Made by a program: the position numbers and the translations under genes. Source: a virus. Taken from it: a stretch of 20,805 nt of DNA. Positions within the stretch are counted from its first letter, which is position 1. Each line of letters starts with the position of its first letter. Below are positions 5,344 to 20,122 of the stretch, piece by piece. The notes below the pieces were generated by a model. The model did no database searches. It was not told the origin of the DNA and was given only the letters and a program-made list of their open reading frames with translations. The stretch spans positions 1 to 20,805 of IMG/VR virus record IMGVR_UViG_3300031227_000536. One strand, written 5' to 3'.

Positions 5344-6841
5344 AGTTGGCGAAGACGATAAAACATTTATGGGTCGTTGCATGGCTAATAAAATAATGGT
5401 ATCCGAATATCCAGATATTAAACAACGATACGCAATATGCAATTCACAATTGAAAAAACCTAAGCCTAAAAAAAGTAACATTAATGTTAATAATGTGAAA
5501 AATAAAATGGACGAAAATATGGCAAAGAAAAAATCAAAATCTGTTTATGGCTTTAAAGTTGTTAGCAAAGCAAAAGGCAAACATATCATTGCGGGTTATG
5601 GTTCTTATATAATGATTGATAGTGATGACCAATTAGTAACGATTGAGGCATTAAAAGGTGGCCTTACAAAGTTTATGGCCGACAAAGAGCGTCGAAACAT
5701 TATGATTTCACATGAGGGTATACAAATTGGGAAAGTCCTTGAAACATATAAAGATTATAAAACGCTTGTTGATGATAAAGGTTTGTTTATCGTTGCTGAA
5801 ATATATGACGATTTAGAGACATCCAAAGGCACATGGCAGGGTATACTTGATGGCGAATACAATGCATTTTCGATTTCATTTGAACCACTGGAAAAGGCAA
5901 CTCACGTTGTTGACGGAGTATGGGAGGAAGTAAAACAGATTAATTTGTTAGAAGTGTCTGTTTGCCAAAATCCTAAGAATCCATTATCACGTTTCATAAT
6001 TTTATCTAAAAGTTCAAATGTTAAAGAAATAAATAATGGCGAAAAGATGACTGAAGAGGAATTAAAAAGCAAGCCTAAGCAAGACCCTGAAGAAGAACCA
6101 GAAGGCGAACCCGCCGAGAAACCTAAAAAACCCGTCAGAATGCCATTTGGAAAACCTACAGACGAATCTGAAGATGGAGAAAAGTCCCCAGGCGATAATA
6201 AAGAAGATGATGCTGGTGGATTAGTCGGAGCAATTAGGGGAGAACTCCAACGATTGTCTGGATTAGGGGAAGAAATACATGCAGAAGACTTATCGCCTCT
6301 AGCAAAATTGGTGACTAATTTGAGAACAGGTGGACAAAAGGCTTATCGATTTCCAGAGAAAGCCGTAAAGTCTGAGGAAGACGATTGGCATACTGTCGTT
6401 GCAAATGCAATCGACGATATATATAATCGTTTAGATGTAGCAATACCCGCAAAAGCGGAAACTAAATCAAATGAGGCCGTAAAAAAATTGAAAGCAGAAG
6501 TAGTTAAAAAATCTCAGGAAGCTGAAGAGGCAAAAAAAGATGCAGGCGAAGCCAAGAAAGATGCTGAAGAGGCTAAAGGAGATGCAGTGGCAGCAAAGCA
6601 GACTGCCGAAGAAGTAAAGACTGTTGCGAATCAAGACCGTGAAATCATGTCAGAATTAAAGGATTCGCTAAAAAATGTTAATGAGACTTTTGGAAAGTTT
6701 GAAGAAAGGCTCAAAAATCTTGAGAGTCAAAAAGAAGTTAAAACAAAAGTCACAACTGAGAAGCTTATAGAAGATTATCACCCGTCAAATGTTCGAGAAT
6801 CGCCCGATGGCGTAGAAATAATAATAAATGGAGAAGAATAG
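5324..6841 (+). CDS. Prohead protease fused to coiled-coil scaffold
   Basis: The start is set at the ATG of MPILKPK, seven bases after GGGGG; an upstream in-frame ATG at 5285 lies inside the previous gene. The 505-residue product has four parts. Residues 1-42 form a small domain with KPKVGEDDKTFMGRCM, then SEYPDIKQRYAIC, a module often found at the front of phage proteases. About residues 72-230 are the protease, with candidate catalytic His130 (IMISHEG), Ser183 (YNAFSISF) and Glu210 (LLEVSVCQNPKNP), as in Mu/HK97-like enzymes of clan SH. An acidic, Pro-rich linker follows (about 232-300). The end is an Ala/Lys/Glu coiled coil (about 385-490) suited to a scaffold. The protease would cleave the scaffold, and perhaps itself, during head maturation. 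An internal ATG at 6047 could start a scaffold-only product. Confidence 0.87.
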   Translation: MPILKPKVGEDDKTFMGRCMANKIMVSEYPDIKQRYAICNSQLKKPKPKKSNINVNNVKNKMDENMAKKKSKSVYGFKVVSKAKGKHIIAGYGSYIMIDSDDQLVTIEALKGGLTKFMADKERRNIMISHEGIQIGKVLETYKDYKTLVDDKGLFIVAEIYDDLETSKGTWQGILDGEYNAFSISFEPLEKATHVVDGVWEEVKQINLLEVSVCQNPKNPLSRFIILSKSSNVKEINNGEKMTEEELKSKPKQDPEEEPEGEPAEKPKKPVRMPFGKPTDESEDGEKSPGDNKEDDAGGLVGAIRGELQRLSGLGEEIHAEDLSPLAKLVTNLRTGGQKAYRFPEKAVKSEEDDWHTVVANAIDDIYNRLDVAIPAKAETKSNEAVKKLKAEVVKKSQEAEEAKKDAGEAKKDAEEAKGDAVAAKQTAEEVKTVANQDREIMSELKDSLKNVNETFGKFEERLKNLESQKEVKTKVTTEKLIEDYHPSNVRESPDGVEIIINGEE

Positions 6842-6842
6842 A

Positions 6843-7289
6843 ATGACAGCAATTTCAACATTCACGACAGCAACGGACAGAATATTAGTTCATGGTGACA
6901 ACCAATACACATTCACCGCTGCAGAAACTCTTTATGCTGGTCAGGTAGTTCAGGTTATTCCCGCTGGTGGAGACTTTCTAATCTATGGTGGTAAACTTGC
7001 TAATACAGCAGTGCCGATTGGAATTGTCGACCAAAATGCAACATCCGGAGATACAGATGTAACTGTAAATCTTTATGGTTGCGTTTGTTACGGTGCAAAT
7101 GCAGATGATACAACTGCAATTGACGCAGGTTCTGCATTGAGGGTCACAGCTAATACAAGTTGTGATGGAACACTTCAAGCATGGGCTGGGGGAGCAACTG
7201 AATACATCATTGGAATCGCGGTTACAGATATAGCAGCAGATGGTTTTGGGAAAGTCTTAGTATGCCCCCATTTGAGTGCAATAGCGTGA
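6843..7289 (+). CDS. Decoration-type protein, first of three tandem paralogues
   Basis: The ATG at 6843 is preferred over 6828 because GGAGAAG sits correctly before it and because the product then aligns end to end with its two neighbours. The 148-residue protein opens with STFTTATDRILVHG and has the family pattern: a strand after TFTAAETLYAGQVV, a GCVCYGAN turn near the middle, and a C-terminal IIGIAVTDIAADGFGKVLV. It is small, beta-rich and lacks membrane or enzyme motifs. Placed directly before the major capsid gene, it fits a capsid decoration or cement protein that binds the outside of the shell. It starts one base after the protease stop (6841), so expression is coupled. The fold is not established here. 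Confidence 0.65.
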   Translation: MTAISTFTTATDRILVHGDNQYTFTAAETLYAGQVVQVIPAGGDFLIYGGKLANTAVPIGIVDQNATSGDTDVTVNLYGCVCYGANADDTTAIDAGSALRVTANTSCDGTLQAWAGGATEYIIGIAVTDIAADGFGKVLVCPHLSAIA

Positions 7290-7300
7290 GGTGAAGAAGA

Positions 7301-7744
7301 ATGGCAGATATAGAAACATTTCCAACAAGAGCAACAATTCTTGTAACGGACCCACAAATCGCACCATTGAGAACTTTTACAGCGAGCGAAGTTATTTATG
7401 CTGGACAAGTTGTAACTGTAGACCCAACTACAGGGGATAATTATGTTACTCCTGGAGATTTGGATAATGCCGCACCAGTAATTGGCATAGCATTATATGG
7501 AGCAGCATCCGGAGCACCGATAACTGTTTGTACAGCAGGTTGTATTTGTTACGTAGCGAATGAATCTGGAAGCGCAGCAGTTGGGGAAGGAAGTACTCTA
7601 ATGTTAGCTAATGCAAATGTTGCAGGAACAGTTCTTGCATATGCATCTGGAGCAGCTTACATAGTTGGTATAGCATTGGAAGATATCGCAGCTAATGGAT
7701 GGGGCAGAGCACTAGTTATGCCTTATGCGGAGGTGGTTAGTTAA
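7301..7744 (+). CDS. Decoration-type protein, second tandem paralogue
   Basis: This 147-residue protein aligns with the genes on both sides: MADIETFPTRATILV at the start, TFTASEVIYAGQVVTV, the GCICYVANES turn, and IVGIALEDIAANGWGRALV at the end. GTGAGGTGAAGAA supplies a ribosome site. It differs from the first copy mainly in the loop between residues 45 and 75, which would be on the exposed side if the fold is a small barrel. The end overlaps the next start in TAATG, so the pair is translationally coupled. Three copies in a row suggest either a hetero-oligomeric cement layer or different surface positions, which is inference. Confidence 0.65.
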   Translation: MADIETFPTRATILVTDPQIAPLRTFTASEVIYAGQVVTVDPTTGDNYVTPGDLDNAAPVIGIALYGAASGAPITVCTAGCICYVANESGSAAVGEGSTLMLANANVAGTVLAYASGAAYIVGIALEDIAANGWGRALVMPYAEVVS

Positions 7745-8181
7745 TGGCAGATACTACAGCATTTCCAACAATCACAACTAGAGTTCGAGTTAATGGTTGC
7801 AATGCAATAACACTGAAAGCTGCTGAAGCAATTACTGCTGGTATGGTCGTTTGTCTTGATGCCGACGGAAATATCGTCGCAGGAGACTCAGACGATGGTT
7901 ACATGCCAATAGGTGTCGCAGATACAGATATAGCTTCTGGAGCGAATGGTACTGTTAATACAGCAGGAACTATTTGTTACGTTGCTAATGAAGATGACAC
8001 TTCAGCAATTGGAAAAGGAACAGTTCTAATGGTAGCCGATGTCAATATCGGTGGTTGTGTTGTCGCACAAGCTGGCGGCGTAGACGCAGATGAATATATC
8101 ATTGGTCTAGCATTAACAGATATTGCAGCTGATGGTTGGGGTCTTTGTTTAGTAAACCCAGCAATTAGTAACACTGCATAA
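7744..8181 (+). CDS. Decoration-type protein, third tandem paralogue
   Basis: This 145-residue protein shares the pattern of the two upstream copies: MADTTAFPTITTRVRVNG, ITLKAAEAITAGMVV, the TICYVANEDD turn and IIGLALTDIAADGWGLCLV. Its middle is more acidic (DADGNIVAGDSDDGYMPIGVAD). The start shares TAATG with the preceding stop. It is followed by a 96-base gap before the major capsid gene, where a T-run and a palindrome occur, so it may end a translational group. The predicted role is capsid decoration, by position and small beta-rich fold. I know of no specific named homologue. Confidence 0.65.
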   Translation: MADTTAFPTITTRVRVNGCNAITLKAAEAITAGMVVCLDADGNIVAGDSDDGYMPIGVADTDIASGANGTVNTAGTICYVANEDDTSAIGKGTVLMVADVNIGGCVVAQAGGVDADEYIIGLALTDIAADGWGLCLVNPAISNTA

Positions 8182-8248: not shown

Positions 8249-8277
8249 GTCAAAAATAATGTAAATTGAGGATATGT

Positions 8278-9225
8278 ATGTCTGAATTAAGAAAATTATT
8301 GGCATATGAATTAGATGGCTCTGACTCAGTACAGAAAGAGAATCTACATTCAATGACTCCGCAACTCCGTAAATTGTTACAAACAGAAGGAATCGAGTCA
8401 ACCACGCTTATCCAAACTGAATTCTCAAAAACAGTTGCAGAGGGTTCAAAACCAAAAATCTCAGCTAGACAATGGCTTCCTATAGTTAGAATTAAATCTA
8501 ACGCATTTAGTTGGCCATACGGTTCAGCTGGAACATACGCTACAAAAGTTGGAGAAGGCGCAAGCTCACCTACTGCTGAACAAGATTACGGCAAACGAGA
8601 TTTTACGACATATAAGATATCACAAGCCGCAGAAATTTCTGAAGAACTAATAGAGGATGGTCTTTACGACATTATCTCTATAGAAGTTAAGAAAGCAGCT
8701 GCAGCATGTGAGAATCGTCTAAACAGAGATGCAATCGGTGCGTTGATGGACGGAACATCTTCTGAAGTTGATACAACTGGAAGTGCCTACAGTACAACCT
8801 TTATGGCAAAAGCAGTTAAAACAATGCAAGAAAATGGCTTCGAACCGGATACACAAGTTCTTTCAGCAAATGCATGGGCAGACCTAATGGCAGATTCTGC
8901 AATTATATACCAAGCATATGCAGGAACAAACAGCGCTCTAAAGACAGGTGCAGTATTCCCAATATTTGGACTTAAGTCTTACATTTGTAATGTAACGGCA
9001 AGTTCAACATATGGTGGATTTACTGGAACTTGGGGTGGAGATACTGATGGCTATTATATGGCATTAGTACTCGACAAAGCAAACGCTGGTGGAATTGCAA
9101 TGAGACGCGACTTAACCACAAAGAAATTCGCGGATGTTCGAAGAGATATTCAAGGTGCTGTTGTATCGATGAGATACGATGTCAACTATCTGCATGCCAA
9201 TGCAACAGTTAGAATAGAAGTCTAA
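8278..9225 (+). CDS. Major capsid protein, HK97 fold
   Basis: The start is the ATG at 8278, after TTGAGGAT; an in-frame TTG at 8266 falls inside that ribosome site. The 315-residue protein follows the HK97-fold plan: an N-terminal helical arm (LRKLLAYELDG...), an extended E-loop region (IVRIKSNAFSWPYG, then ATKVGEGASSP), the YKISQAAEISEELIEDGLYD spine-helix entry typical of these proteins, and a long helix ending NRDAIGALMDG. The A-domain is rich in Gly and Thr, and the C-terminal strands end in AVVSMRYDVNYLHANATVRIEV. It lacks a long delta domain, in keeping with a separate scaffold encoded at 5324. Strong expression is expected. This is one of the firmest calls in the window. Confidence 0.9.
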   Translation: MSELRKLLAYELDGSDSVQKENLHSMTPQLRKLLQTEGIESTTLIQTEFSKTVAEGSKPKISARQWLPIVRIKSNAFSWPYGSAGTYATKVGEGASSPTAEQDYGKRDFTTYKISQAAEISEELIEDGLYDIISIEVKKAAAACENRLNRDAIGALMDGTSSEVDTTGSAYSTTFMAKAVKTMQENGFEPDTQVLSANAWADLMADSAIIYQAYAGTNSALKTGAVFPIFGLKSYICNVTASSTYGGFTGTWGGDTDGYYMALVLDKANAGGIAMRRDLTTKKFADVRRDIQGAVVSMRYDVNYLHANATVRIEV

Positions 9226-10849: not shown

Positions 10850-11761
10850 ATGACAGTCGCAACAAAAGGTTTTCAAGGAGAAATTAGTTGGGTTGCTGAG
10901 TCTGCATATGGTGACGGTGTTGCAACAGGTTCAACTCTGTTGTTACTCGCAAATTGTGTACAGAACGTTAAATTGGGACATAATAAAGCTTTGAATGAAT
11001 CTAGATGCATAAACACATATGATGTCAAGAAAATTGTTACTGGTACTAACATGTACAGTTTATCGACAGAGTATGCGGCTGATAGAAACTATAGTACGAG
11101 TACTTTATTATATAAAGCTTTAACTCGTACATCTGGTGTTCTTGGCAGCGTTGCATTTCAAGTCGGTGTTGGAGTTAATCAAACGACATCAACATACTTC
11201 AATATGAAAGGATGTAAAGCGAAAAATGTAACCATCAGCACAGATGAAGATGCTCCCGTTATGGTCACTATTGACTGGTCTGTAAAAGACGTCGCAACAA
11301 GCACTGCAGTAACTGTAGCTTGTACTGATACAATTACAACTGCTACTAGAAAGTTTACGGGTGGTGCATTTAAGCGCGGAACTTCTGCAACATGGGGTTA
11401 TATCGTTGGTGCAGTTTCTGTTACTATCGATAACGGACTTTATGAAGCAAAGGATATCGGGAATACAACTCTCATCGCAGCAGAAGCAGGACCTAGAGCT
11501 TTATCGGGAACAGCTAATGTATGTTTAACTGATGGCGGTGCAACATATTGGGCAGAATCAACTGGAGTTACATCAACATCAATAGAACTCGATTTTGGTA
11601 CTACCTCAAATGACCCAAGTATTCGTTTCGCAAGTGCAGTTATAGGCTCAATTGAAATACCATTAGATTCAGACAGCGCTATCGTTATGACGACTATACC
11701 ATTTACAGGTGCAACTGCATCAGCTACAACTGAAGGCGTTATATACGAAGCTGCAGCATAA
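10850..11761 (+). CDS. Major tail tube protein
   Basis: This 303-residue beta-rich protein is followed by tail chaperones and the tape measure, the standard siphovirus order. It starts MTVATKGFQGEISWVAESAYGD, resembling tube proteins that open with a short arm and then 'ES.fG'. It has repeated strand-turn segments (NVTISTDEDAPVMVTIDWSVKD, AVSVTIDNGLYEAKDIG), where the 'v.i.....p.v..dw' strand pair is common in tube proteins. The C-terminal IEIPLDSDSAIVMTTIPFTGATASATTEG is also tube-like. The N-terminal half carries the tube fold, and residues beyond about 250 may form an external domain. AGGTG precedes the ATG at a usable spacing. Confidence 0.77.
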   Translation: MTVATKGFQGEISWVAESAYGDGVATGSTLLLLANCVQNVKLGHNKALNESRCINTYDVKKIVTGTNMYSLSTEYAADRNYSTSTLLYKALTRTSGVLGSVAFQVGVGVNQTTSTYFNMKGCKAKNVTISTDEDAPVMVTIDWSVKDVATSTAVTVACTDTITTATRKFTGGAFKRGTSATWGYIVGAVSVTIDNGLYEAKDIGNTTLIAAEAGPRALSGTANVCLTDGGATYWAESTGVTSTSIELDFGTTSNDPSIRFASAVIGSIEIPLDSDSAIVMTTIPFTGATASATTEGVIYEAAA

Positions 11762-12201: not shown

Positions 12202-12485
12202 GTGACATCGATAGGATACACGCATTCGATGAATCAAGATGGTTGTTAGCTTACTTTTATAAATGTCCGTTAACAAATGTTGATTGTTTAACTCTTAATG
12301 ATTTTTATGGATTGCATAGGACTTTACAGGAAATCAAAGAAGCAGAATCTGGTAATTCTGGGGATTCCGGGCAAAAGAAATCACAGGCCAGACCAGCTAC
12401 AAAAAAAGAGTTAGCATTCGTTGAAAGATATAAAGAATATACAGAGAGAAACGAAGAGAAAAAATGGGATTCTTTGAAGAATTAA
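12156..12485 (+). CDS. Tail assembly chaperone, -1 frame extension (gpGT-like C-terminal part)
   Basis: Read in the -1 frame from the slip, the sequence gives SWDIAELSSDNIREISDIDRIHAF, then DESRWLLAYFYKCPLTN, an acidic linker and KKELAFVERYKEYTERNEEKKW, 109 residues to TAA at 12485. The region before any plausible start in this frame (12156-12242) is clearly coding-like, which supports fusion to the upstream protein rather than independent initiation at the TTG at 12243. The fused product is about 202 residues, of which the first 93 come from the zero frame. In lambda and relatives such an extended form binds the tape measure and is made at a low ratio. The end overlaps the tape measure start by 22 bases, coupling the two. 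Confidence 0.68.
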   Translation, partial: SWDIAELSSDNIREISDIDRIHAFDESRWLLAYFYKCPLTNVDCLTLNDFYGLHRTLQEIKEAESGNSGDSGQKKSQARPATKKELAFVERYKEYTERNEEKKWDSLKN

Positions 12486-15400
12486 AAGTCAGATTTTCCG
12501 GTGAAGACGGTTTATCTGGCATGCTTGGAAAGATTACAGGCGGCATGGGAGGTGCAACTAAAGGTGGACTTGCCATGGGTGCGGCCTTCGCAGTTGTACA
12601 AATGGCTATTCAAGCTGTTATGAAAGCCATACAAGCAATGATTAAATTCGTTCAGGAAGGCATACAAGCATATGTTGAATTCGAGAAAGGAATTGCAGAA
12701 GTTTCTACTTTGTTATCCGATAAGAGTCCTTTGGAGGGTTATTCGGAAGGATTAAGACAGTTAGCTAAGGATTCTGGGGAATCTTTAGGAACTCTAACAA
12801 AAGGTTTATACCAGGTCATATCTGCTTCAGTTGACGCTGGAGCAGCTATGGGCGTTTTAACAGTAGCTAACCGAGCAGCTATTGCCGGTGTTAGTGATAC
12901 AGCAACAGCAGTTGATGTCATAACATCCATTATGAATGCTTATGGCATGTCAGCAGCGGAAGCAGAAAAAATATCCGACCAATTATTTACCGCAGTCAAA
13001 TATGGTAAAACGACATTTGGTGAATTAGCGGCTGGAGTAGGCCCTATCATTACAATGTCTGCAAATCTTGGAATTGGCTTTGATGAAGTTGCAGCATCAT
13101 TAGCAACAATGACCAGAAGTGGTATCAAAACAACAAATGCCGTTACATACCTTAGGGGTGTACTCCAAGGAGTTATAAAACCGAGCACAACTGCTATAGC
13201 TACAGCAAAAGAACTTGGCGTACAATTCGACCAAACAGCTCTTAAATCAAAGGGACTTGGTGGATTCTTAAATTATCTTTCTGAAGCTGCTGAAGGGGAT
13301 AGTAAGGTAATGGCAAAATTATTCCCTAATGTTCGTGCTATACAAGCAGTAATGGCTTTAGCTGGAGATAATGCTCAGGGATTTGCTGATGATTTAGATA
13401 ACATGACCCAATCAGCGGGGGCTACTGACGCAGCATTTACGACAATGGCCGATACGACTGCTTTTAAATTGGGACAGATGAAAGCCGAAATTGCTGATAC
13501 GCAATTAGAAATCGGCGAAAAGATGATTCCTGCAACATTAGCATGGAGTAAAGTACAGGTAGTTTTAGCAGAAACAATGGGTACCGTGATGCAAGTCATA
13601 GGCAAACTCTATGATATGATAGTAGGTCCTTTTGTAGAAGCCTTTAGTAGTATCAATACCTCATTGGGTGGCACTACATCGATGTTTGAAATTCTCGGAA
13701 AGGCAATTATGTTTTATTGGGCAGCTACATTTAAACCCCTTTATACATTTATAGCTAATGTACTTGCTGGAGCATTTGAAATATTAGGGGATACAATTAG
13801 TGTAATTACAGATATATTTGAGTCCATGTTTGGAGAAATAGGTCCAGGCGTTGATATATTTGAACTTCTAAATGCATCATTAGATGCAGCTTGTACGATA
13901 ATTAAAAACGTCGTTAAGACAGCATTCGTTCCTTTTAAAATAGCATTGGCCGTAATCAAGACTGTCGTGTTGATAGTTATTCAGAAATTTAAAGATTTTC
14001 TTGCCGTTATAAAACCCGTTACAGATTTTCTAACAGAGAAACTTAAACCAATCCTAGATGCAATTTCAGCTACATTTGGTGTCGTTAAAAATGCTGTCGG
14101 GGGATTTACCGACGGACTTAAAAGCGCATGGGGTGCTCTGACTAATTGGTCAGAGGAAGTAATACACGGCAAAGAAACAGTTGATGAACTTGGCAATGTT
14201 GTTAATCATACAGCAGATGAGATTACGGATTTTGCTGCAGATATAGCAACAACAGTGCGAGCAATTGGAGATTATGATGACGCCATTGAAACTGCTGTTC
14301 AAGAAGTAAAAGATTTAGAAGAAGCCAATAAGGATTTAGTATCGCAGATAGCTGACCTTACACGCATTGACGAGATAACAAGCAGTCTGGATTATTTCAA
14401 GAAAAGCTCTAAGAATGCCACATACGCAACGCAAATATTCGATGACGAATTAAGAAATGCCCAAATGGAATTGCTAAAAACACAGGGCCTTTTAGATGGT
14501 ATGAATGAGACGCTTGACGAATACGGGGATACACAGAAGAAAAATAATCTAGCTATAATGAAGATTCGTTATCAGGCTAAAAAAGAAGGGCGGGATTTAA
14601 CTGAAGACGAAGAAAATCAAATTGGAGATTTGGAATTAGCAAATGAAGGACTTCGAATCAAGGTTCAAGAAGAGCAGATTCGAATGGACGACATTCAAGA
14701 AACTGCGTTAAGAACTGGAAAAGAGAACGTAGCCGAAAGAATTAAACAGCTAGAAGACGAAAAGGATGCCATCAAAGGCAAAGCAAAAACAGAAGTGGAA
14801 AAGGTTCAAGAAGAGATTGATGCAAACAATGTCGCGATATTAGACAAAACACTTGCTTTAAACAAATTTGCAGTTGATAGACAAGCAGCAGTTGATAAAT
14901 TAAATAATGAGTTATTATCAAAACAAAGTATTTTTAATAGTGATGAGCTTACAAGTATTGAAACACAATCAGGTTTAAAATTAACAGAGATTGATACCTT
15001 TATTACAGACAGTGAGTCGAAATGGAGAAACCATTATGCTTATTTAAGTGGTTTAGCCGGAGGGGAAGTTCCTTCTGGTGGTGCAACAACTAATCCACCA
15101 ACACCCACGCCAACCCCTACACCACCGCCGCCACCACCACCACCATATAACGGTGGAACGGATGATGACCCGGATGAACCAACACCAACAACTAGTTATC
15201 AAGTTGCTTCTGCTTATGGAGTAGACACTGGTCGTACAATGAAGGCAAATCTTAAGAGCACTTCAGGCGTTATGCGTACATTAACGGAATTGCCCTATTC
15301 AGCAACTACGCGGTCTATGATTGCGACCGTTATACGAAATATTCTTGCAAGATTCCCGGTTGGTCAAGGACTTAGTTGGGAAAGTGGTGGTTATATCCCT

Positions 15401-15655
15401 TCCGATGCTTATGGTAAAGTTCATGCTGGGGAATACGTATTGCCAAAAAAGATTGTCAGTCTGTTAGATTCATTAGTTCAAAATCCATCATCAGTTGGGG
15501 ACAGGAAACAACCCTCACATATAATTGACGGCGGCGACAGAAGTGTTAGGAATATTAATATCTATGGAAATATTAATTTACCTAGTGTTCAGAATGTTGA
15601 TGATTTCATGAGAGAACTGCAACGTCGTTCACGTACTGCAGGTGCGAGACGATGA
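12464..15655 (+). CDS. Tail tape measure protein (TP901 class)
   Basis: At 1063 residues this sets tail length, roughly 150-160 nm by the usual one-and-a-half angstrom per residue. Residues about 30-65 are a hydrophobic helix. Residues 70-300 carry the TP901 core (FEKGIAEVSTLLSD, LAKDSGESLGTLTKGLYQVISASVDAG, FGELAAGVGPII, LATMTRSGIKTTNAVTYLRGVLQ). A second hydrophobic stretch (about 370-520) can cross a membrane during DNA entry. Residues about 620-830 form coiled coils. A Pro-rich linker follows at about 877-898 (TPTPTPTPPPPPPPP). The end is a GGYIPSDAYGKVHAGEYVLPKK motif typical of tape measure C termini. The start is chosen at the ATG overlapping the chaperone extension. Family call is firm. 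Confidence 0.9.
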   Translation: MGFFEELKVRFSGEDGLSGMLGKITGGMGGATKGGLAMGAAFAVVQMAIQAVMKAIQAMIKFVQEGIQAYVEFEKGIAEVSTLLSDKSPLEGYSEGLRQLAKDSGESLGTLTKGLYQVISASVDAGAAMGVLTVANRAAIAGVSDTATAVDVITSIMNAYGMSAAEAEKISDQLFTAVKYGKTTFGELAAGVGPIITMSANLGIGFDEVAASLATMTRSGIKTTNAVTYLRGVLQGVIKPSTTAIATAKELGVQFDQTALKSKGLGGFLNYLSEAAEGDSKVMAKLFPNVRAIQAVMALAGDNAQGFADDLDNMTQSAGATDAAFTTMADTTAFKLGQMKAEIADTQLEIGEKMIPATLAWSKVQVVLAETMGTVMQVIGKLYDMIVGPFVEAFSSINTSLGGTTSMFEILGKAIMFYWAATFKPLYTFIANVLAGAFEILGDTISVITDIFESMFGEIGPGVDIFELLNASLDAACTIIKNVVKTAFVPFKIALAVIKTVVLIVIQKFKDFLAVIKPVTDFLTEKLKPILDAISATFGVVKNAVGGFTDGLKSAWGALTNWSEEVIHGKETVDELGNVVNHTADEITDFAADIATTVRAIGDYDDAIETAVQEVKDLEEANKDLVSQIADLTRIDEITSSLDYFKKSSKNATYATQIFDDELRNAQMELLKTQGLLDGMNETLDEYGDTQKKNNLAIMKIRYQAKKEGRDLTEDEENQIGDLELANEGLRIKVQEEQIRMDDIQETALRTGKENVAERIKQLEDEKDAIKGKAKTEVEKVQEEIDANNVAILDKTLALNKFAVDRQAAVDKLNNELLSKQSIFNSDELTSIETQSGLKLTEIDTFITDSESKWRNHYAYLSGLAGGEVPSGGATTNPPTPTPTPTPPPPPPPPYNGGTDDDPDEPTPTTSYQVASAYGVDTGRTMKANLKSTSGVMRTLTELPYSATTRSMIATVIRNILARFPVGQGLSWESGGYIPSDAYGKVHAGEYVLPKKIVSLLDSLVQNPSSVGDRKQPSHIIDGGDRSVRNINIYGNINLPSVQNVDDFMRELQRRSRTAGARR

Positions 15656-16191
15656 CCGAATATGAAATATTAATCAATCCCCGTAAAGCTACTGAGATAA
15701 ATATTTCACAGGATAGTAAGAACAGCGAAGACATTTCAATTTCACAATCCAAACAACAGTCATACCAAAATGCAGAATTAACGGTAATTGATAAAAACAA
15801 AACGTTCTATAGCGACGTAACTATTGGTAGTGGAGTCGAGATAACTATTGATGATTCTTTAGAATTTGAGGGTTTTGTTTCCAATAAGCGTACGGTATTT
15901 GCCGGTGGCGCTATATTAAACTTACAGTGTACTGGACGAACGTTTGAATTAGAACGCTATACAACAGCAGAAACGCATTCGTATAATGCCGTTACAACTG
16001 CAGCAATTGCATATGATTTAATTAGTACTTATACGGCAGTAGGAGACTTTGACTATACTAACATCAATACATCGGATGGTGCAACTGTCCAAACAATTAC
16101 GTTTGATGCTGAAACTTTAGGCGTATGTTTCCAGCGTCTTATAGAATTTGACGGTTTTAACTTTTACGTAGGAAACAGGCGGAGAGTCTAA
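15652..16191 (+). CDS. Baseplate hub / tail-tip protein, N-terminal half (apparently split gene)
   Basis: The 179 residues correspond to the first part of a hub protein of the gp27/late-control-D/Tal class. A first beta domain has ISQSKQQSYQNAELTVIDKN and IDDSLEFEGFVSNKRTVFAG. It continues with LNLQCTGRTFELERYTTAE and TAAIAYDLISTYTAVGDFDYTNI, and ends TLGVCFQRLIEFDGFNFYVGNRRRV. That last strand pair is normally followed directly by the next hub strand. Here it stops at TAA, overlapping the ATG of the next gene in TAATG. The missing C-terminal half is present 1 kb downstream, after an inserted module. The start overlaps the tape measure stop as ATGA. Confidence 0.6.
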   Translation: MTEYEILINPRKATEINISQDSKNSEDISISQSKQQSYQNAELTVIDKNKTFYSDVTIGSGVEITIDDSLEFEGFVSNKRTVFAGGAILNLQCTGRTFELERYTTAETHSYNAVTTAAIAYDLISTYTAVGDFDYTNINTSDGATVQTITFDAETLGVCFQRLIEFDGFNFYVGNRRRV

Positions 16192-17666
16192 TGGGAGAAA
16201 CTACATATTATTTTAATAGCCATATTTATGATATTTGGACAAATAATCCCGGTTATATGGTTGATGGAAGTGAAGTAAATAATGCAGCCACTGCAATAAA
16301 CGGAGATATAAATCGTCTTACTGCAAATAGTTACGATGGGTATACTGATTACGGCACTATTTCTAAAGTTGAGATACGTTGTAAAGCTATGTATGCTAAT
16401 TCAGGTTCAAATAATTGTTATGTTCAGCTAGTTCCTATATTTGGTCCTGTATTAAAAGGGGATACGCATAGTTATCAATTGCCTCTGTCAACATTAGCAT
16501 GGAGTAGCTGGTATGACATTACATCTGATACAAATGCGCCTAATTCGTGGGCATGGACAGACATAGATGCATTAAATGCGAATGTGGTTTTTAGTAAAAC
16601 TGCACCTGATACATATGCAGCTTACTGTTCTAAAGTTGAAATACGGGTTACCTATACGGGTCCTACAACTGTAACATTTTACTTTAACAATTATGCACAA
16701 GTAGCTTGGACTGCTCCTCAAAACATGATGGATAATAGTACAAGTACTTGGGGAAATGCTACTGGTGATAGCAAAGCCCATACATTTGATGACATTTCAG
16801 CTGCCTCTAAACCGGGAGCGATAACAAAAGTCTATGTACGTTGGAGTCGTAGAGGAAGTTCAAATGGAAGTTCCACCAATAAAATAGCCGGCCAAATGAG
16901 ATTTACTAATGGAGATGGGGCATTTATATGGGACCAATCGTTTACAGCAAACGCGGCATGGTCTAGTTGGACAGAAATAACATCCGACACAAATGCGCCT
17001 AGCCCATGGACATGGACAGATTTAGATAATTTATCAATAACATTATCAACTTATGATGTTGATGGGAATAAAACTTTTTATATATCCAGTGCGGAAGTTA
17101 AAGTAGAGTATGGAATATTGGATACTTTAGAGGAATCCGTTACATTCACAGACAGCATAGCTTTTATTACGGGCATGCCTATATATTATTATGAACCATC
17201 TACAACATCACAATTTACAATATCGTCTCCAGACATACTTGAGTTTAGTGGCTTGGAAGAAGACGATTCTTTAATACGCAATTACATAATTGTCTTAGGA
17301 ACGGGAGTTCGTGCGACAACAAGCGACAGTACCTCAATTTCAACATACGGACGTTATACGTATCGTTATAAAAACGAGGATATAACAGACTCAACCGATG
17401 CAGCAACTATCGCAGGGCAGATTTTAACAAATTATAAGAATTCAAAAAGTAAAGGTTCATTTAAAATTAAAGGAAAGACTGGCGTAACTACAAGACAACA
17501 ATTTACATTAAAGATGCCAGAATTAGGACTTACAAGTGAGGAATACGAAATTGTTCAGTATAATCACAGTATCACGGGTAGTGGATTTTACACTACTATC
17601 TATTTCGGGGAAGCACCATGGGATATCACCAGAGAGGTTACAAATCTATTGAGGACGGTATACTAA
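16191..17666 (+). CDS. Inserted double beta-sandwich module fused to hub C-terminal half
   Basis: Residues 1-310 of this 491-residue protein are two copies of one domain, each with Y(Y)FN at the start, a MVDGS/MMDNSTSTW segment, I(S/T)KV strands and a strongly conserved tail: AWSSWYDITSDTNAP in copy 1, AWSSWTEITSDTNAP in copy 2, each followed by (W/P)..W(A/T)WTD. A VTFTD linker (about 311-327) leads to the hub C-terminal half from about residue 329: YYYEPSTTSQFTISSPDILEFSGLEEDDSLIRNYIIVLG, then AATIAGQILTNYKNSKSKGSFKIKGKTG and a final EEYEIVQYNHSITGSG strand set. The last two segments have the 'r A..il..y......g...i.G' and 'y.v..v.h.i' form of hub proteins. The domain type looks like a carbohydrate- or surface-binding jelly roll, which is inference. 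Translation is coupled to the preceding gene through TAATG. Confidence 0.6.
   Translation: MGETTYYFNSHIYDIWTNNPGYMVDGSEVNNAATAINGDINRLTANSYDGYTDYGTISKVEIRCKAMYANSGSNNCYVQLVPIFGPVLKGDTHSYQLPLSTLAWSSWYDITSDTNAPNSWAWTDIDALNANVVFSKTAPDTYAAYCSKVEIRVTYTGPTTVTFYFNNYAQVAWTAPQNMMDNSTSTWGNATGDSKAHTFDDISAASKPGAITKVYVRWSRRGSSNGSSTNKIAGQMRFTNGDGAFIWDQSFTANAAWSSWTEITSDTNAPSPWTWTDLDNLSITLSTYDVDGNKTFYISSAEVKVEYGILDTLEESVTFTDSIAFITGMPIYYYEPSTTSQFTISSPDILEFSGLEEDDSLIRNYIIVLGTGVRATTSDSTSISTYGRYTYRYKNEDITDSTDAATIAGQILTNYKNSKSKGSFKIKGKTGVTTRQQFTLKMPELGLTSEEYEIVQYNHSITGSGFYTTIYFGEAPWDITREVTNLLRTVY
16197..16660 (+). repeat. Tail-tip beta module, copy 1
   Basis: This is the first copy of a protein-level repeat recurring at 16661-17112 and 18013-18471. 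The diagnostic segment is W.SWYDITSDTNAPNSWAW, followed by a strand ending VEIRVTY. The DNA copies are diverged, so this is an old duplication rather than a recent exact repeat. Confidence 0.65.
16661..17112 (+). repeat. Tail-tip beta module, copy 2
   Basis: The second copy keeps YFNNYAQVAW near the start, MMDNSTSTW, ITKVYVRWS, and W.SWTEITSDTNAPSPWTW, and ends in VEVKVEYG-like strands (SSAEVKVEYG). It shares most of the ~30-base stretch around the DTNAP codons with copy 1 at the DNA level. Confidence 0.65.
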
Positions 17667-17667
17667 A

Positions 17668-17997
17668 TTGACAACCATTACGATTGACTCGACGATTTAC
17701 CGTGAGGGCATTGAACATTCAGTTGAATTGGAAATACCGGATATTGATAGTTCGGATAAAACAACTCTAGTATCAGCATTGCAAAATGCAGGACGCATGG
17801 GGGTTATCAATTCTCCATTAGCAGATATTCAACATTATGATACGACTACGGATGATTCAAATACCGTCACATTTGTACTAAGTAATTACCCAGACGCTAT
17901 TTCTTCGTCGGTTACATTAATAATTGAAAGTTATTCCGTTGAGATTACTAGTCCTACACCATCATATACATTCCGAATAAGGGGGTTTAGCGAATAG
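17668..17997 (+). CDS. Small tail-tip protein, paralogue of the next gene's C-terminal domain
   Basis: The start is the TTG at 17668, one base after the previous stop, with GAGG 13 bases upstream. The 109-residue beta-rich product aligns over nearly its full length with the last 105 residues of the next gene: SSDKTTLVSALQNAGR against SSAQKTIFDSALKYAGR, P..D...YD.TT, NTV.F, N.P..I, LII...S.EI and Y...I.G. It probably forms a ring or wing component of the tail tip. I do not recognise a named family. It is the plain, module-free version of that domain. Confidence 0.55.
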   Translation: MTTITIDSTIYREGIEHSVELEIPDIDSSDKTTLVSALQNAGRMGVINSPLADIQHYDTTTDDSNTVTFVLSNYPDAISSSVTLIIESYSVEITSPTPSYTFRIRGFSE

Positions 17998-18918
17998 ATG
18001 GCAGAGCATGAAGAAACATATTATTTTAACAGTTGGGGTGCAGCATCAGATGCAGAATGGACAGATGATGCGAATGCCGTTGATGGCAGTACCTCTACAT
18101 GGGCACAATGCAGTACGGGAAATAAGTTCGCTTATTATGATGGAAATAGTTGTACAACAACTCAATTAGGGCTTATCACAAAAGTCGAATTCAGGGGTTC
18201 AGGAAAAGTTAGCAACGCTGGATGCAGCTGGTGTCAAGTTGAGCATAGTCTTAGATATGGTGTAAGTTGGTTAGTCGGCAATGCTGATATTGCAACTACA
18301 ACCGCAGCTTGGTCAGCTTGGGCAGACGTAACGGATGATGCAAATGCACCCGCATCTTGGACATTTGCAGGAATATCTACTAGCATGTCAGGAGCTATTA
18401 CGTGTAATCAGTCTACTGCTGGTTGCGGGACAGTATATTCTGGACGGTGTGAGTTGAAAGTCACGTGGCGTGACCCAATGGCGCTTTACTCTACTAGTGA
18501 TGAAACAGTACTATGCACAGATGTCATTAAAGTGCCATCCACCACAAAACAAACTGAGACTGTCACATTTACTGATACAGTTTCAGAAATACAAATCTAT
18601 CTAGTTCGGGTACTCAGTTACTTGGAAGACGTAAGTCACCATTTCCAATTATCGTTGAAAGTCAGCTCGGCACAAAAGACTATATTTGATTCAGCACTAA
18701 AGTATGCTGGACGTCTTTCAACATTCTCAAAACCATTTGGTGATACAGAAACATATGACGGAACAACGCAACAGCTTAACACCGTTGGTTTCGATATAAT
18801 TAATTGTCCATCTGGGATTACCAATCCATTAATATTAGTTATTGACAATTGTTCATCTGAAATTGTCACTGGCTCAAGATTTTACCTATATTCAATTTCA
18901 GGGTATAAATATGTTTAA
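17998..18918 (+). CDS. Tail-tip protein with beta module and VTFTD linkers fused to a paralogous small-tip domain
   Basis: This 306-residue protein begins immediately after the previous stop (TAGATG). Residues 5-158 are the third copy of the beta module (EETYYFNSW, DGSTSTWAQ, ITKVEFRG, WSAWADVTDDANAPASW). Residues about 160-198 form a linker with two DETVLCTD/TETVTFTD units. The last ~105 residues are the paralogue of the 109-residue protein just upstream. The same module-plus-linker arrangement precedes the hub C-terminal half, so the module seems to move as a unit. The likely location is the tail tip, with the module exposed, perhaps in host-surface recognition, which is inference. Confidence 0.55.
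   Translation: MAEHEETYYFNSWGAASDAEWTDDANAVDGSTSTWAQCSTGNKFAYYDGNSCTTTQLGLITKVEFRGSGKVSNAGCSWCQVEHSLRYGVSWLVGNADIATTTAAWSAWADVTDDANAPASWTFAGISTSMSGAITCNQSTAGCGTVYSGRCELKVTWRDPMALYSTSDETVLCTDVIKVPSTTKQTETVTFTDTVSEIQIYLVRVLSYLEDVSHHFQLSLKVSSAQKTIFDSALKYAGRLSTFSKPFGDTETYDGTTQQLNTVGFDIINCPSGITNPLILVIDNCSSEIVTGSRFYLYSISGYKYV
18013..18471 (+). repeat. Tail-tip beta module, copy 3
   Basis: This copy recurs with the features YYFNSW, a DGSTSTW segment, ITKVEFR, W.AW.DVTDDANAP.SW and a final CELKVTW strand. It is more cysteine-rich than copies 1 and 2. Confidence 0.6.
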
Positions 18919-19117: not shown

Positions 19118-19606
19118 ATGCCATCAGTTATTGATGTATTGAAAAACGGAACACAAAAAGACGCAATTGAGATGTCCGGTAACGTCAACTTTGTTCACTA
19201 CGACGGAGAAGGAAACGTTCTCGGGGAATATGACGGACACAATGTTGTTGTACTCGGCGGACTTCAAAACATGGCTAACTTACTTCTAACTGACGTAGGT
19301 GGAGTTGCTTTTGATTATATTGCAATCGGAACTTCAAATACAGCAGCTGCTACTACAGATACCGCATTAATCGGGGAGGATAGTAGAAGTGCTGGTGCAG
19401 GTACGGTAACATCAACTACACTGTCTGAAGATACTGCTCAGTTACAGGTAACATTTGCAATCACAGGTGCAGATGTAGCGATAGAGGAATCTGGAGTATT
19501 TGCATCCGCTTCAGCCGGGATAATGCTATGTCGTAAAACATTCAGCGATATAAACGTCTCAACAGGAGATTCTTTGCAGGTTACGTGGAAGGTAAAATTC
19601 GCTTAA
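19118..19606 (+). CDS. Tail fibre/collar-like virion protein
   Basis: This 162-residue beta-rich protein has a pattern I recall from many phage tail-associated proteins. It contains GGLQNMANLLLTD near residue 50, the FDYIAIGTSNTAA strand, a TDTALIGEDSR segment, and a final EESGVFASASAGIMLCRKTFSDINVSTGDSLQVTWKVKF, where '(E/T)xAGIFnA...mLaRKtF....v..GDslqvtW' is the signature. GGAG precedes the ATG. Such proteins are usually listed as structural or fibre-associated. The position among tail-tip genes supports that, but the exact location in the virion is not shown. Confidence 0.62.
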   Translation: MPSVIDVLKNGTQKDAIEMSGNVNFVHYDGEGNVLGEYDGHNVVVLGGLQNMANLLLTDVGGVAFDYIAIGTSNTAAATTDTALIGEDSRSAGAGTVTSTTLSEDTAQLQVTFAITGADVAIEESGVFASASAGIMLCRKTFSDINVSTGDSLQVTWKVKFA

Positions 19607-19639: not shown

Positions 19640-20122
19640 ATGACTAGTGGAATTCCTTTAGATGGTTCTCGTAATTCAAGTTGGTTTGCAATAGACCATG
19701 CTGTTCCAATAAAATGGAAAGAGAAAATAGGAAATTCACCATATCATAAATCTAAACGTTCTGAATTGTCTAATACTCGACGTTCAATAGCATTAAAAGG
19801 AAAAAAGAAACTTCCTGAACATATTGCTAAACTGTCAGGACCGAACCACTGGAATTGGAAAGGAGGCATATCAGGACTTCCTGAAAATTCCCGACGAACA
19901 ACAGAATACGATGAATGGCGTCTAGCTGTGTATAAGAAAGACCATTATACCTGTCAAGATTGTGGGCATCGATTTAATGGCATTGTTGCGCATCATATTA
20001 AATCTTTCGCCGGCTTTCCTGAGCTTAGGTATAATGTTGAGAATGGTATAACTTTATGTCGTTCTTGTCATTTGAAAAGACACAGCGAAATTGGGTATGC
20101 AACTAAGTTCAAAAAAGTGTAG
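19640..20122 (+). CDS. HNH endonuclease (free-standing, homing-type)
   Basis: This 160-residue protein has a short N-terminal DNA-binding-like segment (SRNSSWFAIDHAVPIKW, then IGNSPYHKSKRS) and a KGKKKLPEHIAKLSGPNHWNWKGGISG stretch of the type seen in NUMOD3-like regions of homing enzymes. The C-terminal HNH domain has CQDCG (about 114-118), AHHIKSF (the first H), ENGITLC and CHLKRH, so the metal-binding cysteine pairs and the catalytic His/Asn/His are present. Such genes spread by cutting DNA at their insertion site and usually have no virion role. It interrupts a structural block between fibre-like and membrane-anchored genes. The call is solid; the recognition site is unknown. Confidence 0.88.
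   Translation: MTSGIPLDGSRNSSWFAIDHAVPIKWKEKIGNSPYHKSKRSELSNTRRSIALKGKKKLPEHIAKLSGPNHWNWKGGISGLPENSRRTTEYDEWRLAVYKKDHYTCQDCGHRFNGIVAHHIKSFAGFPELRYNVENGITLCRSCHLKRHSEIGYATKFKKV

Follow-up and report, generated by a model that had tools for sequence, protein, structure and literature searches.

The DNA under study is a stretch of 20,805 nucleotides from a viral record (IMGVR_UViG_3300031227_000536; henceforth the window, meaning the whole stretch) that represents a partial genome of an uncultured tailed virus, and our subject is a pair of overlapping genes in it that appear to encode a single baseplate hub of the gp27/YqbQ type in two chains. Gene A (15652-16191, 179 residues) encodes the N-terminal part of the hub (chain 1), as judged from a joined match to the Pfam family YQBQ and from relatives. 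Gene B (16191-17666, 491 residues; chain 2) contains two beta modules, a linker and the C-terminal part of the hub. These genes and the features within them lie on the plus strand. The modules, each of about 150 residues, span residues about 4-155 and 162-308 of gene B: copy 1 at 16200-16655 (E 1.5e-60 with the module hidden Markov model [HMM], this copy itself being in the training set) and copy 2, found with the same HMM, at 16674-17114. They are followed by the linker ILDTLEESVTFTDSI, which contains VTFTD (17115-17159), and by the 168-residue hub C-terminal part (17160-17666), recognised by its matches to YQBQ (profile positions 197-285 of 294), to HSTV-1 gp27 and to a related contig described below. 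This C half begins at about residue 324-328 of gene B (17160-17175), where a first-pass annotation made from the sequence alone had put it (near residue 329, about 17175). Gene B is in the -1 frame relative to gene A, and the two genes meet in a TAATG stop-start overlap (16189-16193) in which one base is shared; a Shine-Dalgarno-like GGCGGAG for chain 2 lies within the 3' end of gene A (16178-16184).

Profile searches place both halves in one family, as the first-pass annotation had proposed. Residues 375-464 of gene B matched the C-terminal part of YQBQ (profile 197-285 of 294), and the joined window halves scored 29.0 bits in two stretches, above the Pfam cut-off of 27 bits, compared with 23.4 bits for the C half alone and 20.6 bits for a reversed N half joined to the C half. 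An order-swapped join reached 29.1 bits, as expected under local matching, so the order of the halves rests on the corresponding join from a relative, the contig L012 (related contigs carry L numbers here). The joined L012 halves matched YQBQ in a single stretch (profile 2-285 of 294, E 4.7e-7), and also phrog_1887 (E 2.1e-9) and phrog_400 (E 1.4e-6), the two phrog matches each running in one stretch over the join and being better than with either half alone. The orthologue of chain 1 in L012 and L013, searched by itself, matched GpP-like_1st, the Mu GpP-like first domain (PF21683), at E 3.3e-4, which is below the curated cut-off. Joined, the halves match YQBQ-like hubs (PF24032) and the Mu gpP-like first domain colinearly and over the full length; the Pfam model is one continuous domain, whereas here it is divided over two genes.

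The strongest evidence for a single hub is an undivided relative. The contig L037 bears an open reading frame (ORF; 514-2967, 817 residues) that encodes an undivided hub, and L038 does likewise; both were found via the module search. With residues numbered along the stop-to-stop frame, which begins two residues before the ATG, the chain-1 profile (positions 20-178) matched L037 residues 22-175 (independent E value [iE] 1.7e-18), the profile of the chain-2 C half (positions 8-55) matched the adjacent residues 176-226, and its positions 50-168 matched residues 698-817 (iE 6.8e-17), while the joined profile (positions 24-234) matched residues 26-227 in one stretch (iE 1.6e-26). At the cut site L037 reads continuously through the sequence FKFYIDNSGQMHYYQPE, which is consistent with a beta-hairpin, and nothing is inserted there; at the same site the window reads FNFYVGNRRRV followed by a stop and, after the insert, IYYYEPS. 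Together with the joined match and the GpP-like domain in L013, this continuity bears out the proposal that gene A is the N-terminal part of a hub. L037 carries a 472-residue insertion at a second hub site, after VLVVGG and before EITATRTDDN, and the hub therefore takes large insertions at more than one loop. A second undivided relative, HSTV-1 gp27 (596 residues, one gene), matched the C half at residues 191-270, the expected position (E about 1e-7). A further undivided hub, of 333 residues, in L003 (phrog_4930, E 6.2e-42) matched gene A weakly: hhalign aligned chain 1 to the phrog_4930 hubs weakly, if in the correct position (P 0.0015), and the HMMER comparison with the L003 hub was barely above shuffles, and we relied on neither. 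Because the hubs of L037, HSTV-1 and L003/phrog_4930 are undivided, the cut is most simply read as the derived state. We conclude that, by sequence, gene A and the end of gene B are two halves of one hub.

The same cut, with its TAATG overlap, was found in four lineages: the window, L002, L043 and L012, the last together with L013 and L014, which show 0-1 differences in 2243 bases and are therefore one virus. Across the lineages the N halves are 39-70% identical and the C halves 42-73%, while the inserts differ; chain 1 of L002 is 70% identical to that of the window. In the hub halves, the window and L002 differ at 52-53% of third codon positions versus 12-18% of second positions, with dN (nonsynonymous divergence) of 0.19-0.22 and dS (synonymous divergence) of about 2.2 or saturated, and from this pattern both hub halves are under purifying selection. 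On these comparisons the split is no artefact, and the cut is conserved and functional. Scans with the hub halves added no lineage, L043 and L037 having come from the module scan; scans of genome contigs found no relative, and neither chain had a tblastn match in the phage collection.

What varies is the insert. In the window it consists of two modules, which are genuine tandem homologues, as had been proposed: copies 1 and 2 are 33% identical over 156 residues (blastp E about 1e-11 to 1e-14), and their alignment score (z = 21) was reached by none of 500 shuffles. The insert of L002 has one module, 58% identical to window copy 2, and lacks copy 1. That of L043 (223 residues) has several linker-like repeats and a distantly similar module, a resemblance that is tentative because it was obtained at E 1e-4 in a three-sequence search; that of L012 (402 residues) does not detectably resemble the window modules (z < 2). 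Linkers of the form ETVTxTD, similar to that of the window, occur in relatives and in the window gene starting at 17998. Comparison of the lineages sharing the cut thus shows the insert to be exchanged among them, and the earlier suggestion of exchangeable modules is strengthened, since four lineages with a common cut carry different inserts.

We therefore favour, at a probability of roughly 0.8, a reading in which the two genes encode one gp27/YqbQ-type hub as two co-folding chains, the second of which bears a host-binding arm. The break in the hub chain would fall in the turn of a predicted beta-hairpin (FNFYV-GN before the cut, IYYYEP after it). Chain 2 would probably be translated by coupled re-initiation, its start overlapping the stop of chain 1, which would keep the two chains near 1:1. 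The chains would then fold jointly and co-assemble into one hub subunit, presumably a trimer like other hubs, with the N-terminal part of chain 2 (two modules and the VTFTD linker) forming an arm that would extend, exposed, from the tip of the hairpin and may contact the host surface, where glycans or S-layer are the likeliest targets. An advantage of the cut may be that the N terminus of the arm is free, so that swapping the arm would require in-frame joining at a single point, the linker. Few parts of the tail are as constrained as the hub, which closes it, yet the conserved cut admits unrelated domains at one point in related viruses; if the reading is true, it explains how such viruses could alter their adhesion targets while leaving the tail machinery undisturbed.

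Several results weigh against this reading. Split lineages number only four and come from a few metagenomes. Chain 1 of the window alone had no significant match in PHROG and Pfam profile searches, so that it is identified through the join and through relatives. AlphaFold2 models built from three-row alignments were unusable (mean predicted local distance difference test [pLDDT] 29.6 for chain 1 and 41.1 for chain 2); a Foldseek search with the poor model of chain 2 had no match at E <= 0.001, which we did not use as evidence, and PDB sequence searches gave nothing convincing. Finally, Pfam and PDB sequence searches with the modules found no significant match and hence no direct support for a binding role.

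This last result bears on the possibility that the hub is indeed made of two chains but that the modules are structural spacers or stabilisers of the tail tip and do not bind a receptor: the module matches no binding family, and Ig/FNIII-like domains in tails are frequently of uncertain role. We nevertheless regard this as unlikely, since the modules are replaced between relatives and recur on many proteins of different viruses, and since neighbouring tail-tip proteins (below) follow the same slot logic, one relative having there a lectin-like Laminin_G_3 domain (E 1.7e-23), all of which points to adhesion. About 20 viral contigs have the module, in proteins whose sizes vary widely. A serine-repeat protein of a 122-kb viral contig (L004, 249-1448) contains a module 44% identical to a window module, which indicates that the module is highly mobile.

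A quite different outcome of the overlap would be -1 frameshifting, which would yield a fused hub, one polypeptide with an internal domain insertion. Gene B is in the appropriate frame, and insertions within hub genes are common, as the 472 residues in L037 illustrate. However, no slippery heptamer is present in the overlap in any of the four lineages, the gene B frame of L012 has a stop one codon ahead of the ATG, the peptides encoded upstream of the ATG in the gene B frame are not conserved, and all four lineages have a purine-rich, ribosome-binding-like site before the ATG, those of L002, L012 and L043 being comparable to GGCGGAG and at the same place. We thus consider frameshifting very improbable. 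The junction itself, which the first-pass annotation had taken as creating a new start, is present and kept in the four lineages, but further TAATG junctions occur in the window genome at 7744 and 9874; being common in this genome, it proves nothing alone.

That chain 1 might be a complete tail protein in its own right, for instance a distal tail protein, without relation to chain 2, could be argued from its lack of a significant family match by itself, but this is contradicted by L037, which holds chain-1 and chain-2 sequence in one gapless ORF, and by the joined-profile matches, and we give it hardly any credence. Least credible of all is a frame error or pseudogene, in which a recent insertion, a sequencing error or an assembly error broke the hub: the halves do form one undivided hub in relatives, but the idea is refuted by conserved orthologues in independent contigs, the same cut recurring in L002, L012/L013/L014 and L043 at 39-70% protein identity with both halves under purifying selection.

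Two-chain hubs are already known, and the two-chain hub proposed here differs from them in lacking an Fe-S (iron-sulphur) domain and intervening genes. In phage lambda, gpL carries HDI (residues 1-166) and gpJ carries HDII-IV; close to its N terminus gpJ also has an inserted beta-sandwich, FNIII-A (residues 72-215). The end of gpL is a four-cysteine [4Fe-4S] domain, and L and J are separated by genes K and I (PMC10721106). The distribution of hub domains over two proteins is thus shared, and FNIII-A resembles the modules at the start of window chain 2. By contrast, chain 1 of the window has two cysteines (1-3 across the four lineages) and no four-cysteine Fe-S domain at its end, and in all four lineages the hub genes overlap by one base with no genes between them. 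Likewise, the hub (g13) and megatron (g15) of RcGTA, and those of roseophage R4C, form a two-protein trimeric hub with oligosaccharide-binding insertions (PMC7296036, PMC10276861), and hub and megatron have been termed the two proteins composing the gene transfer agent (GTA) hub (PMC10038345); unlike the window hub, this one includes a much larger second protein, the megatron of 1304 residues, has a peptidase gene separating the two genes, and contains an Fe-S domain in the hub protein.

Among the tail proteins of haloarchaeal tailed viruses, HSTV-1 gp27, whose match to the C half is described above, HFTV1 gp44 and HRTV-29 gp68 are each encoded by one gene and carry their extra domains at the C terminus, not at the hub cut. 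HFTV1 gp44 is a hub whose structure has been solved and in which a carbohydrate-binding domain is predicted (PMC12494034); it had no significant sequence match to the window hub. By analogy with this domain and with the oligosaccharide-binding hub domains of RcGTA and R4C, we infer a binding role for the arm. The gp27-type hub gp147 of phage 0305phi8-36 also combines a conserved core with exchangeable attached domains (PMC2147016), but is undivided and has its variable domains at the ends. Our searches of open papers turned up no account of such an arrangement from archaeal viruses. Somewhat short of an even chance, in our estimate, is the further idea that the cut itself is an adaptation, a permanent two-chain hub that provides a standing cassette site, bounded by the TAATG start and the ETVTxTD linker, at which recombination swaps the arms, and that it arose independently of the lambda/GTA split. 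The proposed hub would offer a simple natural two-chain case, with neither Fe-S cluster nor intervening genes, for studying the origin of lambda-type split hubs.

Downstream of gene B, on the same strand, lie two genes that share a tail-tip domain of about 107 residues, here called the anchor domain and identified with an HMM across relatives. The first (17668-17997, TTG start, 109 residues) encodes the domain alone; the second (17998-18918, 306 residues) has an N-terminal beta module (18016-18468), as in chain 2, attached through a linker to this different tail-tip domain (about 18595-18915). Across the loci with such proteins (window 17668-18918, L012 15384-16322, L013 19317-19943 and L037 2968-5355) the anchor domain recurs alone or behind a beta module, a Laminin_G_3 or a CarboxypepD_reg-like domain. 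The lectin-like Laminin_G_3 domain noted above precedes it in L012; in L013 the preceding CarboxypepD_reg-like match is weak (E 6.7e-4, below the cut-off); and L037 has by eye a similar series, one member of which contains Laminin_G_3, together with an anchor match that is marginal (E 0.0066). Since anchor and hub proteins both carry varying N-terminal modules, conserved tail-tip domains with exchangeable N-terminal modules appear to be general among these viruses. Also downstream of the tail tip, in L002 (11626-12525), L043 (5673-6272) and L013 (15656-19315), are proteins that look membrane-anchored within a tail operon, as they start with a hydrophobic segment and a basic KxHKKxLVA motif; the L013 protein carries Beta_helix repeats (E 2.5e-16).

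The surrounding genes are those of a tailed virus. The tape measure gene (12464-15655, plus strand; phrog_991, E 3.1e-57, and PhageMin_Tail) ends in a stop that overlaps the start of chain 1 as ATGA, and gene A, starting at 15652, thus lies directly downstream of it, as expected of a gp27/YqbQ-type hub. The tail tube gene is at 10850-11761 (Phage_tube_2). The major capsid protein (MCP), encoded at 8266-9225, is of the archaeal type, a type that serves as an archaeal-virus marker (PMC8651126). In a tblastn search of 50,697 phage records all seven MCP matches were haloarchaeal tailed viruses (best E 3e-14), and the window virus is therefore probably an archaeal tailed virus. A stand-alone protein of the phrog_5417 family is encoded at 19118-19606 (E 9.3e-23); the same family matches within the single-chain hubs HFTV1 gp44 (residues 404-507) and HRTV-29 gp68 (residues 394-487). 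Upstream of the major capsid gene, at 6828-8181, three similar tandem genes of about 150 residues look by eye like capsid decoration proteins, and a protein adjoining the tail genes (19640-20122) has by eye an HNH-endonuclease-like CxxC...HH...CxxC pattern.
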